Assembly (NCBI GenBank): GCA_023262325.1
Contig: JALRBS010000211.1
Span: 1 to 33,836 of the forward strand
Length of the DNA stretch: 33,836 nt
DNA from: Ilumatobacteraceae bacterium
GTDB lineage: Bacteria > Actinomycetota > Acidimicrobiia > Acidimicrobiales > Ilumatobacteraceae
Direction of reading: 5' to 3'
Shown: in pieces, positions 14,202 to 22,114 of the stretch
How the letters are laid out: every line of letters starts with the position of its first letter
Numbering within the stretch: the first letter of the stretch is position 1
Made by a program: the position numbers and the translations under genes
The notes under the pieces: model-generated
Seen by the model: only the letters and a program-made list of their open reading frames with translations
Database searches by the model: none
Told to the model about the DNA's origin: nothing

Positions 14202-14651
14202 GTGCGGGTCTCAACACGTGGTGATTATGCCTGTCGAGCATTGTTGTCGCTCGCGCTGCGCGCCGATGAAGCAGGACCGACATCGGTGCGGGACATCGCT
14301 GAGCGAACCGCACTGCCGCAGCCTTACCTTGAGCAAATCCTTCTCGCGCTGAAAGGCGCCGGACTCGTGCGATCGAAACGAGGGGTCGGCGGCGGGTACG
14401 TGCTCGCGCGCGCTCCATCGAACATTCGACTTTCAGAGATTCTCTCCGCAGTTGACGGGCCGATCACGCTCGGCGACTTTGGCGAACCTCACACCGATGG
14501 TGCCTGCGATCACGAAGGACAATGTGTGTTGCTGTCGATCTGGAACGCGGCTGGCGATGTCATGCGAAGCCACCTCGAGGGTTACACACTTGCGACGATT
14601 GTCGAAATGGCGAATGGCTCTACGCCCTGGCCGCCGACCGCGGCTACCTGA
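14202..14651 (+). CDS. Rrf2 family transcriptional regulator
   Basis: A winged-helix regulator of 149 residues. MRVSTRGDYACRALLSLA and the helix-turn-helix around RTALPQPYLEQILLALKGAGLVRSKRGVGGGY match the family (IscR, NsrR, RsrR). The effector region has only two cysteines, in GACDHEGQC. IscR and NsrR use three, so a cluster with a non-Cys ligand, or a plain thiol or redox switch, is possible. There is a His between the two cysteines. The start is GTG without a Shine-Dalgarno site. It converges on rluD (27 nt between stops) and diverges from the phosphodiesterase-like gene. No iron-sulfur or nitric-oxide gene is adjacent to indicate its regulon. Confidence 0.9.
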   Translation: MRVSTRGDYACRALLSLALRADEAGPTSVRDIAERTALPQPYLEQILLALKGAGLVRSKRGVGGGYVLARAPSNIRLSEILSAVDGPITLGDFGEPHTDGACDHEGQCVLLSIWNAAGDVMRSHLEGYTLATIVEMANGSTPWPPTAAT

Positions 14652-14678
14652 CGAGATACACCCGCAGCCAGCCCGTAC

Positions 14679-15608
14679 TTAGCCATTCGGCGCGATTTCG
14701 AGCGTTGCAAGCATCGCTGAGAGGTCATCAGCAAGATCGCTCGTGAACTCGACACGTTGCCCAGTCGCAGGGTGGTCGAATTCGAGATGGGCCGCGTGCA
14801 GAAATGGACGCTGCAACCCAAGCGTTGGACGTCGTTGCCCGTACCAAGGATCACCGATGAGAGGGTGATTGATCGATGCGAGATGCACTCTGATTTGATG
14901 CGTACGTCCCGTTTCAAGGCTGCACCGTAGGAGCGAACAGGCCGCTGGTGCTCGATACTCCCCGACCACCACGTACTCGGTTCGTGCGTCTCGGCCATCG
15001 GCGACGACTGCCATTTTGAGGGGATCACGTCGCGACCGTCCGATGGGTGCATCGATGACGCCATGCGGCGCGTCCGGAACCCCCCACACCAGCGCCGCAT
15101 ATTGTCGAGTTGCCGAATGATCAGCGAATTGCGGCACCAACGCCTCGTAGGCCCGTTGGCTCCTCGCCACGACAAGCAAGCCTGTACTGCCGGCGTCGAG
15201 ACGATGGACGATGCCCGGTCGATGTTGTTCACCGACCGCGTGAATCTCCGGATACCGAGCAAGCAGCCCATTGACGAGAGTGCCCGATCTGTTGCCAGCA
15301 CCCGGATGCACCACCTGTCCGGCTGCCTTGTCGACGACGATGATGTCATCATCTTCGTAAATAACGACGACGTCGACATCTATCTCACCGGCCGGAGGTT
15401 GCTCAACTTCCAACATGTCAGGATCTGCTGAGACTGACTGCCCCGCACTTAGTCTGATCTTTCCGCTTCGCTCCACGGTTCCATCGACGGTCACCGCGCC
15501 GGCTGAAATGAGTGAGGCAGCGGTCGACCTCGAGATATCGAGGAGTAAGGCAACGATGCGGTCGACGCGCTCTCCATCAAGCGCTGACGGAACTTCTTCA
15601 TGAATCAT
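14679..15608 (-). CDS. rluD: Ribosomal large-subunit pseudouridine synthase, RluD type
   Basis: Isomerises uridines to pseudouridine in 23S rRNA. At 309 residues it has an N-terminal S4 RNA-binding domain (about 1-65) and an RluA/RluD catalytic domain. The catalytic Asp138 is in [12 protein letters not shown]; most relatives read HRLD..TSGL, so the Thr/Ser pair is swapped here. Other conserved motifs are [21 protein letters not shown] and FLHAAHLEF. The ATG at 15608 overlaps the lspA end by 11 nt and has AAAGGTG upstream. The lspA-rluD order is common in actinobacteria and Firmicutes. The exact target uridines are not certain. Confidence 0.93.
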
Positions 15609-16098
15609 GGTTCACCTTTGAAGCACGTCCTCGAGCCTCACGCGCCAGCGACAACACGAGCAAGGCTGCGCCGAGATTGATTGCAATGTCGGCAACGTTA
15701 AAGACCGGGAACCATTGAAAATCGATGAAGTCAACAACGGATCCGCGGAGCAATCCCGGCGATCGGACAACGCGATCCATGAAATTTCCTGTCGCTCCGC
15801 CAACGAGAAGCCCAAGCGCGATGGCGACCGCTCGAGTTCGCTGACGACTCATTGAGCGCGCAAGCACGACGATGATGAGAAAGGCAAGAACGGCGATCGC
15901 GGGACCGAACCCAGTGCCTGCTCCAAACGCCATCCCGGAGTTGTACGTGAGCCGCATCCGCAGCGTCCAGACGACATCTACAGGGCCATCTTTCAACGTT
16001 CCGAGCGCGATTTGCTTAGTGACTTGATCGGCGACAAGAACGACGAAACCGAGGATCCAAGGAGTTCGGCGAACAAGCCAGCCCGCCGTTTTCGTCAT
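15598..16098 (-). CDS. lspA: Lipoprotein signal peptidase (signal peptidase II)
   Basis: A membrane aspartyl protease that removes the signal peptide from diacylglyceryl-prolipoproteins. At 166 residues it has four hydrophobic segments, starting near 11-28. Family motifs are [32 protein letters not shown] and [11 protein letters not shown]. The catalytic aspartates are D123 (VVDFID) and D137 (NVADI). The ATG at 16098 forms an ATGA overlap with the upstream dksA-like stop, so translation is coupled; a GGAGGG lies 11 nt upstream. The first residues are basic, as expected for a cytosolic N-terminus. Extension to 16146 would run further back into the dksA-like gene and is not needed. Confidence 0.95.
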
Positions 16099-16598
16099 CG
16101 ACGACCAATCCCTCCAACTTTTTCTTCGACGAGCTCGGTCGCCCAAGGAATCGCCTCAAGTCGTTCACGTGGAATCGGCTTCATCGACATAACGGAGTAT
16201 CCGTACGTCCCTTGACCCATCCGCGCGAGCGCCGCGTCGATGTCTGCGACGGCTTCACGGGCTTGCGCACTGAGGGCGAGATCCCGCTCACGTTCGACCA
16301 CCATCGTGTCGCCTTCGCCGCCTTCATCGTCAAACTGCACATCGCCCATCTCGGCTTCTTCAATGAGTTGGTTCGCCTCTGCATCAAGCTGGTCAGCCTG
16401 ACCGATGAGACGTTCGCGTTCCGCGATGAGCATCGCTTGTTGCGACTTCAGAAACTTCACGTCGAAATCCTTGGTGTACGCGATGCCGTCCTTGGTGGTG
16501 CCACGAACCGTTGGTGCGACCGGAGCGGCAGGGACAGCCTTCTTCGCAGGAGCAGCCTTCTTCGCAGGGACAGCCTTCTTGGTTCGTGCCGATGCCAT
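16095..16598 (-). CDS. DksA/TraR-like protein lacking the zinc cysteines
   Basis: A 167-residue RNA polymerase secondary-channel-type protein. Residues 7-30 are a Lys/Ala/Pro tail built from KKAVPA-type repeats. Residues 45-125 form a coiled coil with an acidic tip region (DDEGGEGD followed by ERERDLALS). Residues 130-167 are the DksA/TraR finger remnant [14 protein letters not shown] followed by [15 protein letters not shown]. In zinc-binding relatives the pattern is GTYGxCxxCGxPIP and PWATLCVECx. Here those cysteines are S135, S138, L156 and E159, while everything around them is kept, so the fold is probably retained without zinc. The ATG has AAAGG 6 nt upstream. It sits between ileS and lspA. 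Confidence 0.88.
16528..16581. repeat. Three tandem 18-bp repeats inside the dksA-like gene
   Basis: Three consecutive copies of an 18-bp unit (GCAGGGACAGCCTTCTTC with 1-3 changes each) at 16528-16545, 16546-16563 and 16564-16581. On the minus strand each encodes a six-residue KKA(V/A)PA unit. In-frame copy-number change would lengthen or shorten the basic tail without breaking the gene. Confidence 0.85.
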
Positions 16599-16636
16599 TT
16601 GGAGCCTTTCTCTCAGCAGCCCGGGAGACTAGCGGT

Positions 16637-19600
16637 TTACGAGACGATCGGGGCGACAGCGAGATCAATTGTCTCCTCGCCGTCAATCGCCATCGCGTCA
16701 TGTGAGGTGACGAGGGTCTCGGCCGTCACCATTGATTCGTGAGCCTGAAATGCCTGCACGGTGGTCTCATCGCTTCGAAGCACCATAGAAACCCGATCGC
16801 TCACATTCAGGTCAAGCTCGCGGCGTTTTGTCTGAATACGTCGGATGAGGTCACGCGCAACACCTTCTTGTTCGAGCGCTTCAGTCACGACGGTGTCAAG
16901 CACCACAATTCCGCCGCCATTCGGGAGCGTCGCTGCCGCTCCATTTGCGTCCGAGACCAGTTCGAACTCAAATTCGCCGGGTTCAAGCACGTTGCCGCCG
17001 ACGGTTACGACGCCGTCAACAACGCTCCAATCCCCTGCCTTGTGTGCAGCGATCACCTGCTGCGTCGCTGCCCCAAGCCGTGGTCCAAGCGCCTTCGGGC
17101 TGAGCACGAGTCGCTCCGAACCGTGATCTGCAACCCGATCGGTGAGCACGACCTCTTTGAGGTTCACCTCGTCGCGAAGGATGTCGATATGTGGTGCGAC
17201 GAGGTCGACATCTGGAGTTGCGATCGTTGCTGAGGCGAGCGGGAGACGGACCCTCAAGCCTTCGTTCTTTCGGAGCGACAGCAAGGTCGAGCAGGCGTCA
17301 CGAACTCGTCCCATTCCGCGGGCCAGAGCTACGTCACGTGGGAGGTCGGCAGCGGACGGCCAATCTTGCAGGTGAACACTCGCTCCGCCGGTGAGCCCGC
17401 CGTGAATCTGCTCAGCGACCATCGGCAGTACCGGTGCAGCAACTTTGGTCAGCACAACAAGCGCCGTATGCAAGGTGTCAATTGCATCGACGTCGCCCTC
17501 CCAGAATCGGTCGCGACTTCGACGGATGTACCAGTTCGTCAGAGTGTCCAGGAACCGCTGAATATGCTCGCACGCTCCATAGAGGTCGTACGCGTCCATT
17601 GTCTCGGTTACCGAGTCGACCAACGTCGCAAGTTCGCCGAGCAAGTACCGATCAAGCACACCTTCCTGGTCTGTCCGATACGCACCGGTGCGATCTGCGG
17701 CACCCGCGTACAACGTGAGGAAGTAGTAGGCATTCCACAGCGGAAGGATGACCTGTCGAACGGTGTCTCGCATGCCGCTCTCAGTCACCGAAAAATCCGA
17801 ACCTCGAAGGATCGGAGACGACAGCAGGTACCAGCGCATGGCATCGGCGCCGTACACGTCAAACATCGAGTTGGGGTCAGGGTAGTTACGCAACGACTTC
17901 GACATTTTTGCGCCATCATCTCCAAGCACGATGCCGTGACTCACGCAATTCGAAAAGGCGGGGCGATCGAACAGAGCGGTGGCGAGCACATGCATGGTGT
18001 AGAACCAGCCTCGCGTCTGCCCGAGATACTCAACAATGAAATCTCCCGGGTAGTGATGCTCGAACCATTCGGCATTCTCAAATGGGTAATGCACCTGCGC
18101 AAAGGGCATCGAGCCTGACTCAAACCAGCAGTCGAGCACCTCGGGAACTCGGCGCATCATCGATCGCCCACTCGGATCGTCGGGGTTTGGCCGCGTCAGC
18201 AGGTCGATCGCTGGTCGGTGTAGATCGTGAACTGCAACTCCAAAGTCCGATTCGAGTTCGGCAACTGATCCGTACACGTCAATTCTCGGGAATGCGGGAT
18301 CATCACTCACCCACACTGGAATTGGCGAACCCCAAAAGCGATTTCTACTAATCGACCAGTCGCGTGCGTTCGACAGCCATTTCCCGAAACTTCCATCTTT
18401 TACGTGAGCTGGCACCCAGTTGATGCCCTGGTTGAGCTCAACCATTCGGTCACGAAATTCGGTCACTCTCACAAACCAGGATGAGATGGCGCGATAGACA
18501 AGCGGTTCAGCGCAGCGCCAACAATGTGGGTACGAGTGCATGTATGAGTCGTGACGAATGAGACGGCCGACGTCGCGTAGGCGCCGGATGATCGCAGGAT
18601 TGGCTTCGAAGACGTGCTCGCCCGCCCAATCCGAAATTTCGCTCGTGTACCGGCCGTGTTCGTCCATCGGACAGATCGTCGCGATGCCAGCTGCGGTGCA
18701 CGCATTCTGATCCTCTTCACCAAACCCAGGCGCCATGTGCACGATGCCCGTGCCGTCTTCCGTCGAGACAAAATCGCCGGGCAACACAACAAACGCATTT
18801 TCCGTGTCCGAAAGAAACGGAAATAACGGTTCGTAACGACGACCCACAAGATCGCTTCCTTTGAGGCTGCCGACAACCGTCGCCTCGGGAAACTGGGCCT
18901 CATAGGCGGCGAGCCGCGACGATGCGATCACCCAGCGGGAGCCGTCGTGTTCAATGACGGCATAGTCGATGTCCGGTCCCACTGCGAGGGCGAGGTTCGA
19001 TGGGAGCGTCCATGGAGTCGTCGTCCAGGCGAGAATACGCTCACCTGTTTCCAAGGTGAACCACACCGTAACTGCAGGGTCCTGCCGGTCGCGATAGACG
19101 TCGTCCATGCGAGTTTCAGTGTTCGACAGAGGCGTCTCACACCTCCAGCAATACGCGAGCACCCGAAATCCTTCGTAGATGAGCCCTTTGTCCCATAGGC
19201 GTTTAAACGCCCACATGACGCTTTCCATGTAGTCGCGATCAAGGGTTTTGTAGTCGTTGTCGAAGTCAACCCATCGGGCTTGACGCGTCACGTAGTCGCG
19301 CCACTGCTGCGTGAACTGTAGGACGCTTGTTCTGCATGCATCGTTGAACCGATCGACCCCGAAGGCGGTGATTTCAGGGTGACCGGAAATCCCAAGTTCT
19401 TTCTCTGCCTGCACCTCCGCAGGGAGTCCGTGACAATCCCAACCGAATCGCCGCTCGACTCGCCGTCCGCGCATTGTCTGATAGCGCGGTATCGCATCTT
19501 TCACGTAACCGGTGAGCAGGTGGCCGTAATGCGGAAGTCCGTTGGCAAATGGCGGACCGTCGTAGAACACGAATTCGTTGTCGCCATCAACACCTGCATC

Positions 19601-19705
19601 GCGCCGATCGATCGACGTCTGAAAGGTGTCTCCCTCTGCCCAGCGTCGCAATACGTCGCGCTCAAGTTCTGGGAGATTCGGCTGAGGAGATACAGGGGGG
19701 TACAT
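16637..19705 (-). CDS. ileS: Isoleucyl-tRNA synthetase, eukaryotic-like (type 2) form
   Basis: Charges tRNA-Ile. It is 1022 residues from the ATG at 19705. The class I signatures are HYGH at 59-62 ([17 protein letters not shown]) and KMSKS at 600-604 ([16 protein letters not shown]). [11 protein letters not shown] and the HYGH form mark the IleS2/eukaryotic-like branch; the usual bacterial IleS has HIGH and WDTHGLP. That branch is known for poor inhibition by mupirocin. The editing domain (about 200-400) and the C-terminal anticodon-binding region are complete. Two CWRC motifs occur (CWRCETPL and CWRCAEPL). No Shine-Dalgarno site is seen at the chosen ATG; longer readings would overlap sepF. 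Confidence 0.96.
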
Positions 19706-19765
19706 GGTTCGCGTTTCGATCAGATGGCCAACAGGCGTTTGCAGGCTATCGACGGGGACGCCCGA

Positions 19766-19783
19766 GGCGAGTCTTCTCTCGCC
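19766..19783. other. Hairpin in the sepF-ileS spacer
   Basis: A perfect 6-bp stem GGCGAG/CTCGCC with a 6-nt loop begins 3 nt after the sepF stop on the minus strand. It is not followed by a T-run. The 80-nt spacer is too short for a normal T-box and lacks the TGGnACC element. It may be a processing or stability element between the cell-division genes and ileS. A possible -10 (TAGCCT) follows at 19748-19743. Confidence 0.3.
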
Positions 19784-19785
19784 GC

Positions 19786-20295
19786 TTAGTGATCGCTGGA
19801 ACCGGACGGCTTCAGGAGATAGACGCCGTTCGCAACCTTTTCCATTGCCCCATCGAGGGCATAACACAGACCACTCGCGAAGTCGATGAGTCGGCGCGAC
19901 ACCTCGCGCTCACAGGCGTCGAGGTTCATGATCACCGGCTGCCCGCGCTTGAGAGCATCCGCAAGTTCTGGCGCTTGGTCAAAACGAGTTGGCCGAACCG
20001 TCTGCGGCTCATGTGTCGAACGAGATGATTTCGCTGAGCGAACGATGACTCCGGAATCGTCGTTCGTCGATTGGCGACGCGACGGCGAAGCATCAAAGTC
20101 ACGGCTTGGAAAGACGGGGCGACCTGAACTTGAACGCTCAACTTCCGGCTCGCGCTCCACCGCAATCCCTGAGCGAGAGGTCGTGTCCTGGCGCCGAACG
20201 CGCGGCTCGTACTCTTCCTCGAACTCTTCGTCGTCGTAATAGGCCTCATCCGGTCCAAGACCGAGATAGTCCATTGTGCGTTTCCACAGAGACAT
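19786..20295 (-). CDS. sepF: Cell division protein SepF
   Basis: The FtsZ membrane anchor and bundling factor that replaces FtsA in actinobacteria. At 169 residues, the first few ([14 protein letters not shown]) can form the amphipathic membrane-binding helix. Residues 15-90 are an acidic then Ser/Arg-rich disordered linker. The C-terminal domain (about 100-169) has [37 protein letters not shown] and the conserved [20 protein letters not shown]. The ribosome site GGAGGAG (20301-20307) is 5 nt from the ATG. No ftsA exists in this cluster, which agrees with SepF as the main anchor. Confidence 0.96.
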
Positions 20296-20300
20296 CGAAA

Positions 20301-20307
20301 CTCCTCC
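20301..20307 (-). promoter_or_regulatory. Strong ribosome binding site for sepF
   Basis: GGAGGAG followed by TTTCG and ATG, within the 61-nt spacer after the yggS-type gene. Confidence 0.65.
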
Positions 20308-20356
20308 TTCCTGAGAAGGCTAATCCAATCACGGAGTCCGGTGGCGGAGGGTTGGC

Positions 20357-21019
20357 TTAGCGACGATTACCAAGAATTGCAGTGCCGATCCGGACCATCG
20401 TTGACCCGGACGCAACAGCAATTTCAAGATCGCCCGACATACCGAAGTTGCGCACCCGAAGATTGTGCTCATCGGCGAGTTCACGAACGTGTCGAAACGC
20501 TCGGGCAGTTTCGGCGTCGCTGCCATTCGTTGGCCCGACGGTCATCAGCCCAGTGACGTTCAACCCGCCTTCGTTCGCCCGCCGAATGAGCGTCGGGACT
20601 GACCTCGGTGAACAGCCGCCCTTTCCCGCTTCCGCATTGGTGTTCACCTGGAGGTGAACTTCGCAACCGGGAATTCGTTTCGAAATCTCATCGATCAGCG
20701 ACTCTCGATCAACACTTGCGATGCAATCAACGAGACCGGTGAGCAGCCGCACTTTATTCGTCTGCAATTGGCCGATGAAGTGGGTTCGAACCCCACACTC
20801 ACGGGCGAACTCGATGTCCGCCGATTTGTTGCGCAGTTCTTGGGCGTAGTTCTCGCCGATCGCGACCGCGCCGGCCTCAACCACCCTACGGATGACCTCC
20901 CCAGAATGGGTCTTCGTTACGACGACAACGTCAACGGGACGTTCAGCAACCGCCCTGATATGACGTTCAACTTCATGAAGGCGGTCGCGTATGACCTCTG
21001 CGGTGAGATCCACGGTCAC
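20357..21019 (-). CDS. yggS: YggS/PLPBP family pyridoxal-phosphate homeostasis protein
   Basis: A PLP carrier with a fold like the alanine racemase barrel and no known catalysis. It is 220 residues. The PLP lysine is K36 in VVVVTKTHSGEVI. Other conserved parts are GENYAQEL, HFIGQLQTNK, QVNTNAEAGKGG and FGMSGDLEIAVASGSTMVRIGTAILG (positions about 190-217). The start is GTG at 21019, with a second GTG 6 nt downstream; neither has a clear Shine-Dalgarno site. It lies 24 nt after ftsZ and 61 nt before sepF, the normal place for this gene in actinobacteria and Firmicutes, but without the pgeF gene that often separates it from ftsZ. Confidence 0.94.
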   Translation of the reverse strand: MTVDLTAEVIRDRLHEVERHIRAVAERPVDVVVVTKTHSGEVIRRVVEAGAVAIGENYAQELRNKSADIEFARECGVRTHFIGQLQTNKVRLLTGLVDCIASVDRESLIDEISKRIPGCEVHLQVNTNAEAGKGGCSPRSVPTLIRRANEGGLNVTGLMTVGPTNGSDAETARAFRHVRELADEHNLRVRNFGMSGDLEIAVASGSTMVRIGTAILGNRR

Positions 21020-21043
21020 CCGTCAACTTGCCCGAACGCAGAC

Positions 21044-22114
21044 CTATTTGAGGAAGGACGGCACATCGAAGCCGTCGTCTTCCTCCTCGTCGTCGTCATC
21101 AGCGAAGAGTTCTGACAGCCGAGAGGTACTACCCATGGATGCGCTGTCGGATCCACCGAGGGAATCCACACGATCGAAACCTGCCGCTACGACCGTCACC
21201 TTGACTTCGTCGCCCATTTCGTCATCGATGACGGTACCGAAGATGAGGTTGACGTCGGGGTGCGCAACCGAGTGGATGATTTCGGCGGCAGCATTCATCT
21301 CGAACAAGCCCATGCTCGACGGACCGGTGATGTTCAGAAGCACGCCGCGAGCACCGTCGATGGCCGACTCGAGGAGCGGACTTGAAATTGCAGCCTTCGC
21401 CGCAGAGACCGCCCGCTCATCGCCACCAGCCTGGCCGATACCCATGAGAGCCGAACCAGCATTCGAGAGCACCATTCGCACGTCGGCAAAGTCAGTGTTG
21501 ATGAGGCCCGGAGTTGTGAGCAGATTGGTGATGCCCGACACTCCGTCGAGCAACACGTCGTCTGCCATCTTGAATGCGCTCAAGACGCTCGTCTTCTCAT
21601 TCGCCACCGACAACAGACGATCGTTCGGGATGACGATAAGAGTGTCGACCTTTTCTTTGAGCCGCTGAATTCCGGACTCTGCCTGCACCGCCCGTCGACG
21701 GCCCTCGAAGGCAAATGGTCGTGTCACGACGCCGATCGTCAACGCACCAGCGTTTCGAGCAATCTCAGCAATAACCGGCGCTGCGCCAGTTCCGGTACCG
21801 CCGCCCTCGCCAGCGGTGATGAATACCATGTCAGCGCCCTTCACCAACTCCGCAATTTCGGCCTCGTTTGCCTCTGCAGCACCTTTACCAACCTCGGGAT
21901 CGCTACCCGCCCCAAGACCGCGCGTGAGGTCACGGCCGATATCGAGTTTGACATCGGCATCGCTCATGAGGAGTGCCTGAGCGTCGGTGTTCACAGCGAT
22001 GAACTCGACGCCTCTCAGACCGGCGTCGATCATGCGGTTGACGGCGTTCACTCCGCCGCCGCCAACGCCAACAACCTTGATCACAGCGAGATAGTTCTGT
22101 GGTGAGCCTGCCAT
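21044..22114 (-). CDS. ftsZ: Cell division protein FtsZ
   Basis: The tubulin-like GTPase that forms the division ring. It is 356 residues. The GTP-binding signature GGGTGTG is at 104-110, the N-terminal loop is [15 protein letters not shown], and the T7 loop [10 protein letters not shown] that completes the neighbour's active site is intact. The conserved C-terminal tail is DVPSFLK, the SepF-binding end. The disordered linker before it is short and very acidic ([12 protein letters not shown]). The ATG has AAGGAAGG upstream. There are 211 nt between the ftsQ stop and this start, with no gene in them; a possible -10 TATGGT is at 22146-22141, so ftsZ probably has its own promoter. Confidence 0.98.

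Follow-up and report, generated by a model that had tools for sequence, protein, structure and literature searches.

The 33,836-nt stretch of an Ilumatobacteraceae genome analyzed here, referred to as the window, carries between ileS and lspA a gene for a DksA/TraR-fold protein in which none of the four zinc-ligand positions of the finger is a Cys. We consider it quite probable that this protein is a regulator of the DdbA type which has a metal- and thiol-free finger and most likely works like DksA. With somewhat less assurance, we also favor the wider view that in the whole family the housekeeping DksA/DdbA regulator has exchanged its zinc finger for a metal- and thiol-free one by way of one-Cys intermediates that live on in sister families, with ileS co-directional in the same clade and with no zinc or redox reading. 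The orthologues offer a natural series at one locus, with four, three, one or no zinc ligands, and the purpose of the zinc site (folding as against sensing of zinc or oxidants) is therefore directly testable.

The gene, its locus and its predicted fold

The frame lies on the minus strand at 16,095–16,598 including the stop, begins with ATG and encodes 167 residues, among which there is neither a Cys nor a His. Its N-terminal tail (residues 1–36; 16,491–16,598, minus strand) is Lys/Ala/Pro-rich and H1-like in sequence and has low pLDDT. The predicted model then gives a first coiled-coil helix (residues 47–83; 16,350–16,460), an acidic coil tip (residues 84–98; 16,305–16,349) and a second coiled-coil helix (residues 96–129; 16,212–16,313), and sequence and model together delimit a finger domain without zinc ligands (residues 130–161; 16,116–16,211), all on the minus strand. 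Alignment with orthologues that stand at this locus and have a C4 finger places S135 (16,194–16,196), S138 (16,185–16,187), L156 (16,131–16,133) and E159 (16,122–16,124, all minus strand) at the first, second, third and fourth Cys positions; the frame and the four residues named in the initial annotation are exact.

PF01258, the Pfam zf-dskA_traR model of the C4 zinc finger, does not match the window protein, and the protein reaches none of the NCBIfam cut-offs, which we counted against a DksA-like reading: TIGR02420, the DksA equivalog, scores 34.9 bits against a cut-off of 115.5, and TIGR02890 (YteA) scores 63 against 134.4 bits. Among orthologues at the locus, PF01258 gave 45.7–56.7 bits in all five C4 proteins tried, 23.1–34.3 bits in all three one-Cys proteins and 13.4–14.5 bits in both zero-Cys proteins (cut-off 24.9). 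In a group of aquatic actinobacteria, the Pfam model of the C4 zinc finger misses what is apparently a main regulator.

The metal-free model, built from 45 alignment rows and no templates, has a mean pLDDT of 80.6, with 92, 94 and 89 for finger residues 131–140, 141–150 and 151–160. It predicts the antiparallel coiled coil and globular finger domain of the DksA/TraR superfamily, and the elements follow in the same order in the model of a C4 orthologue (L103). Foldseek listed P. aeruginosa DksA2 first (4ijj_A, E 1.2e-4, TMt 0.75) and E. coli DksA third (1tjl, E 1.9e-3). VIA gave Z 12.0 over 118 residues for 1tjl, Z 11.9 over 117 for 4ijj, Z 10.4–12.0 over 117–118 residues for the E. coli DksA chains together (1tjl, 5vsw, 7khi) and Z 8.5 for the best non-family chain, although for long helices a Z below ~13 may reflect only a common arrangement. 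Sequence matches to the solved chains 2kq9, 6ptg and 4ijj are weak (E 2e-4 to 2e-3). Structure modeling, proposed at the outset as a check, thus returned a predicted DksA fold, nearest to P. aeruginosa DksA2 and E. coli DksA. Because AlphaFold often folds a zinc finger in the absence of the metal, a metal-free model is no proof of a metal-free protein. The stretch behind the finger is shorter than that of DksA, the last helix of the model ending at residue 161, and we counted this against the reading as well.

The gene order is ileS, DksA-like gene, lspA, pseudouridine synthase (rluD), all on the minus strand. The ileS open frame lies upstream at 16,637–19,867, its start codon position being provisional; lspA occupies 15,598–16,098, and the RluA/RluD-type synthase that follows it (14,679–15,608) has S4 and PseudoU_synth_2 domains. 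The lspA frame is listed from 16,146 and most likely starts at the ATG at 16,098–16,096, which would overlap the TGA of the DksA-like gene at 16,097–16,095 (ATGA). We found lspA adjoining in 196 of the 201 loci kept for counting (L173, L174, L191, L192 and L205 are without a match) and in 30/30 loci from the wider phylum. Where ileS was matched in the stretch examined, it is co-directional with the DksA-like gene in 89/89 zero-Cys loci and opposite in direction in 53/55 one-, three- and four-Cys loci; where seen among the 30 phylum loci it is opposite in 24/24. These orientation counts make the run from ileS into the DksA-like gene a mark of the zero-Cys clade among the loci read, and since the sample contains near-copies, co-directional ileS is to be taken as one event, not many. 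The fixed place between ileS and lspA that the initial annotation described holds on the lspA side, in 42/42 loci read from the family, whereas outside the zero-Cys clade ileS usually lies on the opposite strand.

The gene was also said to stand away from zinc uptake genes, and indeed none is among the neighbors identified. No Rfam family reached its gathering score in the window, so no T-box leader was seen ahead of ileS, and the best match in 15,900–20,400 (E 0.29) is chance-like. A promoter and terminator scan of 14,500–20,800 found none but was uninformative, its results lying below the shuffled means. Beyond this run, sepF, a gene for an alanine-racemase-N-domain protein and ftsZ lie directly upstream of ileS (19,786–22,114, minus strand); a gene for an Rrf2-type regulator (14,202–14,651, plus strand) adjoins the pseudouridine synthase gene on the other strand; and a bacterial proteasome activator gene (PF10759; 12,452–12,919, minus strand) adjoins dnaE.

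Cysteine classes and their phylogeny

Protein patterns brought in relatives from many Ilumatobacteraceae, Acidimicrobiaceae and acIV actinobacteria and from other Actinomycetota. We searched 395 genomes, 373 of which gave a match and 22 none. The loci read were chosen among the better matches of the 373, and weak matches of other orders (e.g. f44, f47, f49, f52) were left out. From 227 assembled loci we kept 201 for counts and dropped L151 as a duplicate of L001, L100, L102 and L150 as cut by a contig end, L101 for a broken frame, L107 as belonging to another phylum and lying off the locus, L187 for a frame read past its stop, L152 as a mini-protein, and L131–L146, L148 and L149 as paralogue places or places without a match.

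The 201 loci hold 186 distinct sequences, with zero Cys in 94, one in 34, three in 12 and four in 46. In the window's family, each of the 42 loci read encodes a protein with zero Cys and has lspA adjoining, which bears out the suggestion that the ligand-free protein is the normal form in this lineage. Other families of the same order have one Cys (mostly CSR, with the fourth position taken by Y, F or H) or four; other orders of the class (20 loci read) have three (C-A/G/S/T-C-C) or four. A C4 query was used to draw the 30 phylum loci; they comprise 24 CCCC and 6 CCCD fingers, a count that is no census because such a query favors C4 forms. Relatives with intact cysteines at this locus had been named in advance as a sign of isolated decay. 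Such relatives exist, though solely outside the window's family: other families of the order have them, as do more distant groups, and they mark an older state and not isolated decay.

In a tree of 115 rows with the four trait columns masked, which included 24 of the 94 zero-Cys rows and excluded L147, these 24 rows form one clade (100/100), and the tree needs 5 changes among the four Cys classes as against 57.9 in shuffles. FastTree applied to the 186 rows set the 94 zero-Cys rows on one side of a branch with support of 100. The zero-Cys clade falls among one-Cys rows, with a weak joining branch (87/27). Stepwise loss is the simplest reading because families at the same locus keep one, three or four Cys; the ligands were probably lost from four Cys to one and then to none, an order that rests on weak branches. 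One CCCC row (L192, genome G314) is placed among one-Cys rows, and its family, f35, consists of this row and a single one-Cys row; regain, transfer and tree error are the candidate explanations.

Selection, the coil tip and likeness to DdbA

Each of the 94 distinct zero-Cys sequences has S135 and E159; S138 is kept in 96%, Y134 in 95% and L156 in 85%; S135 is encoded by TCN in 105 of 109 loci and by AGY in 4. In 25 close pairs, which are not independent, dN/dS is 0.039 for the first helix, 0.016 for the second and 0.018 for the finger, and the tip has a pN of 0.000. D97 is present in 94/94 and E95 in 93/94 zero-Cys sequences.

The tip, its register counted back from the finger, reads ExxExD (E92, E95, D97) as against DxxDxA in DksA, a difference that we counted against likeness to DksA. 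We take E92, E95 and D97 to be the counterparts of D71, D74 and A76 in E. coli DksA. The 46 four-Cys rows have E92 in 39, E95 in 38, D97 in 14 and Gly at position 97 in 21, and since E92 and E95 are thus present in most of them, the change from Asp to Glu predates the loss of the ligands. To our knowledge, actinobacterial RNA polymerase lacks Si1, which would explain the shorter C-terminus. According to the accessible text of PMC9239242, the finger of TraR sits at the secondary channel entrance, its C-terminal helix contacts beta Si1, and the tip aspartates of DksA and TraR are required for function. The conservation of the tip would fit contact with the RNA polymerase active site.

We propose that the finger domain folds through side-chain packing that would replace the zinc site. 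The coiled coil would enter the secondary channel of RNA polymerase, bringing its acidic tip close to the active site, the finger would seat at the channel entrance, and the Lys-rich tail may touch DNA. In the window's family the finger would have turned metal- and thiol-free, probably in steps. With neither metal nor thiol in its finger, the protein should therefore need no zinc to function and should not sense redox state through thiols.

The DdbA type of Streptomyces (SCO2075) combines a DksA-like body with a histone-like part, as the window protein does; in the accessible part of a review (PMC11942623), DdbA is described as influencing RNA polymerase together with ppGpp and as organizing DNA and affecting its conformation, and its deletion as altering chromosome compaction and spore resistance. 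The window protein has a Lys-rich, H1-like tail ahead of its DksA-like body and a place beside lspA, and by analogy this tail and this neighbor fit the DdbA type. Eight actinobacterial genomes of one genus (7.1–9.9 Mb) have a Lys/Ala-rich tail joined to a finger (7 CCCC, 1 CCCD) in a gene that adjoins lspA. Our guess is that this genus is Streptomyces, and SCO2075 presumably adjoins lspA and ileS. Compared with the C4 loci of the DdbA type, the window protein has no ligands and a short tail, and ileS is on the same strand. Lys/Ala/Pro-rich tails precede orthologues of classes C4, C3, C1 and C0, and in 198 of the 201 loci the mean number of Lys and Arg in the 40 residues before the core is 9.2, 8.0, 11.9 and 8.4, respectively.

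Alternative readings and the question of zinc

The initial annotation had suggested a selected form and not decay, and a finger dN/dS of 0.018, indicative of purifying selection, together with zero Cys in 42/42 family loci upholds this. Isolated decay is ruled out by the same 42 loci, the one supported clade and the strong purifying selection; decay of a single copy was likewise rejected, given the clade, the invariant S135 and E159, the 42/42 family loci and the low dN/dS. That the gene is degenerate throughout and on its way to loss could draw on the one broken copy (L101) and on the family genomes without a match (8 of 37 at the locus, a count that we held against our preferred explanation), but the finger dN/dS and the invariance of S135 and E159 across 94 distinct sequences of one clade leave it with almost no credence. 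We consider it quite unlikely, though less far-fetched, that this is mainly a nucleoid protein that has kept the fold, binds DNA through its tail and no longer uses its coil as a DksA-like polymerase regulator: the tails present in every Cys class, the altered chromosome compaction on ddbA deletion (PMC11942623, accessible part), the ExxExD tip and the short C-terminus would all agree with such a role, yet no stretch of the protein is as conserved as the tip (D97 in 94/94, E95 in 93/94, pN 0.000), in keeping with a role at the active site of the polymerase, and the window tail has only ~36 residues.

It is unlikely that the loss of Cys was adaptive, a response to zinc scarcity or oxidizing conditions after the manner of DksA2, the zinc-starvation copy of Pseudomonas. 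A protein without Cys cannot be thiol-oxidized, and the absence of Cys and His leaves no thiol or imidazole to bind zinc and no thiol-oxidation switch; DksA2 is moreover the nearest solved fold in Foldseek. Against this, the single L31 (CSCG..CNEC), L36 (C..C..C..H) and L33 (three Cys) found in the window genome, the only three zinc proteins looked at, keep their Cys ligands and give no sign of general zinc sparing; no zinc uptake gene is among the neighbors identified, and zero-Cys genomes range from 1.5 to 6.2 Mb. PF01258 matches elsewhere in 31 of 150 family genomes, all of at least 2.6 Mb, and 17 of 20 such paralogue loci read have all four Cys, with 3 unresolved by the pattern. The adaptation to zinc scarcity put forward in the initial annotation is therefore not borne out. 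It is very improbable that a metal other than zinc is bound, be it by E159, by acidic residues or by an oxygen site: E159 is invariant, but S135, S138 and L156 make no good site, the window protein has no His or Cys, and the zero-Cys fingers have one His in 15/94 and none in 79/94. Likelier than adaptation to zinc scarcity would be drift by way of folding for which zinc was dispensable, later fixed by packing that involves Y134, L156 and E159.

A second copy with cysteines, for which a genome search had been suggested, was not found: in the window genome (2.23 Mb, 221 contigs, 96.7% complete) PF01258 has no match, and a C4 paralogue that would cover a zinc role was rejected on this basis. The arrangement of a second copy beside a C4 DksA, known from DksA2, is likewise absent by PF01258. 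Three genes of the FUR family were found, among which a Zur member was not distinguished.

Zinc-independent DksA proteins are already established (DksA2, RSP2654 and SMc00469; PMC9239242, PMC9213440, accessible text). P. aeruginosa DksA2 (4ijj) has a zinc-independent finger and a DksA fold like that predicted for the window protein; two Cys remain in it, and it is an additional copy that is produced only under zinc starvation (PMC9213440, accessible text), whereas the window protein has zero Cys and is the only full-length copy found in its genome. The proteobacterial R. sphaeroides RSP2654 and S. meliloti SMc00469 have no C4 finger and function like DksA according to the accessible text of PMC9239242, and are compared here by that description. 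C. trachomatis DksA (6ptg) has one Cys in its finger stretch YGICDVSGEEIPLARLMAIPYATMTVK, like the one-Cys orthologues of the window's order, whereas the window protein keeps none. E. coli DksA and F-plasmid TraR, unlike the window protein, have a C4 zinc finger, a DxxDxA tip and a longer C-terminal helix. No zero-Cys DksA of Acidimicrobiia was apparent in the literature searched (titles and the starts of abstracts, with few subscription papers covered), and the sole co-mention of DksA and Acidimicrobi among the matches concerns Acidihalobacter. As far as this search extends, the novelty lies in a housekeeping orthologue that has lost all its ligands throughout the family loci read, together with living intermediates and the DdbA-type tail.

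Several smaller observations concern gene copies and a related protein. The broken copy (L101) lacks the second helix and the greater part of the finger, and its two matched pieces lie in different frames; this copy may have been either lost or misassembled. Contigs G006:C18, G007:C19, G018:C2, G043:C79 and G047:C112 and loci L034, L036, L040, L047 and L094 start near or in the Lys/Ala-rich tail, no more than a few hundred bases from the core; contig breaks at the tail may therefore conceal the gene where a genome gave no match. TIGR02890 located one further place in the window genome, a finger-only mini-protein, GTYWVDEVTGEPIPNDLLAAHP, of 61 residues with no coil and no Cys (L152:1459-1641; G000:C87:2405-2587), which has no Pfam match. 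If the wider view of the family given at the start is true and this mini-protein is ligand-free too, the small genomes of the family would be without any zinc-binding DksA/TraR protein. The mini-protein was matched in 52 of 61 family genomes searched, 51 of them at E 1.5e-7 or better, with weaker extra matches mostly at orthologues of the window gene, and among the 20 mini-protein loci read, 2 (L299 and L302) keep one Cys.
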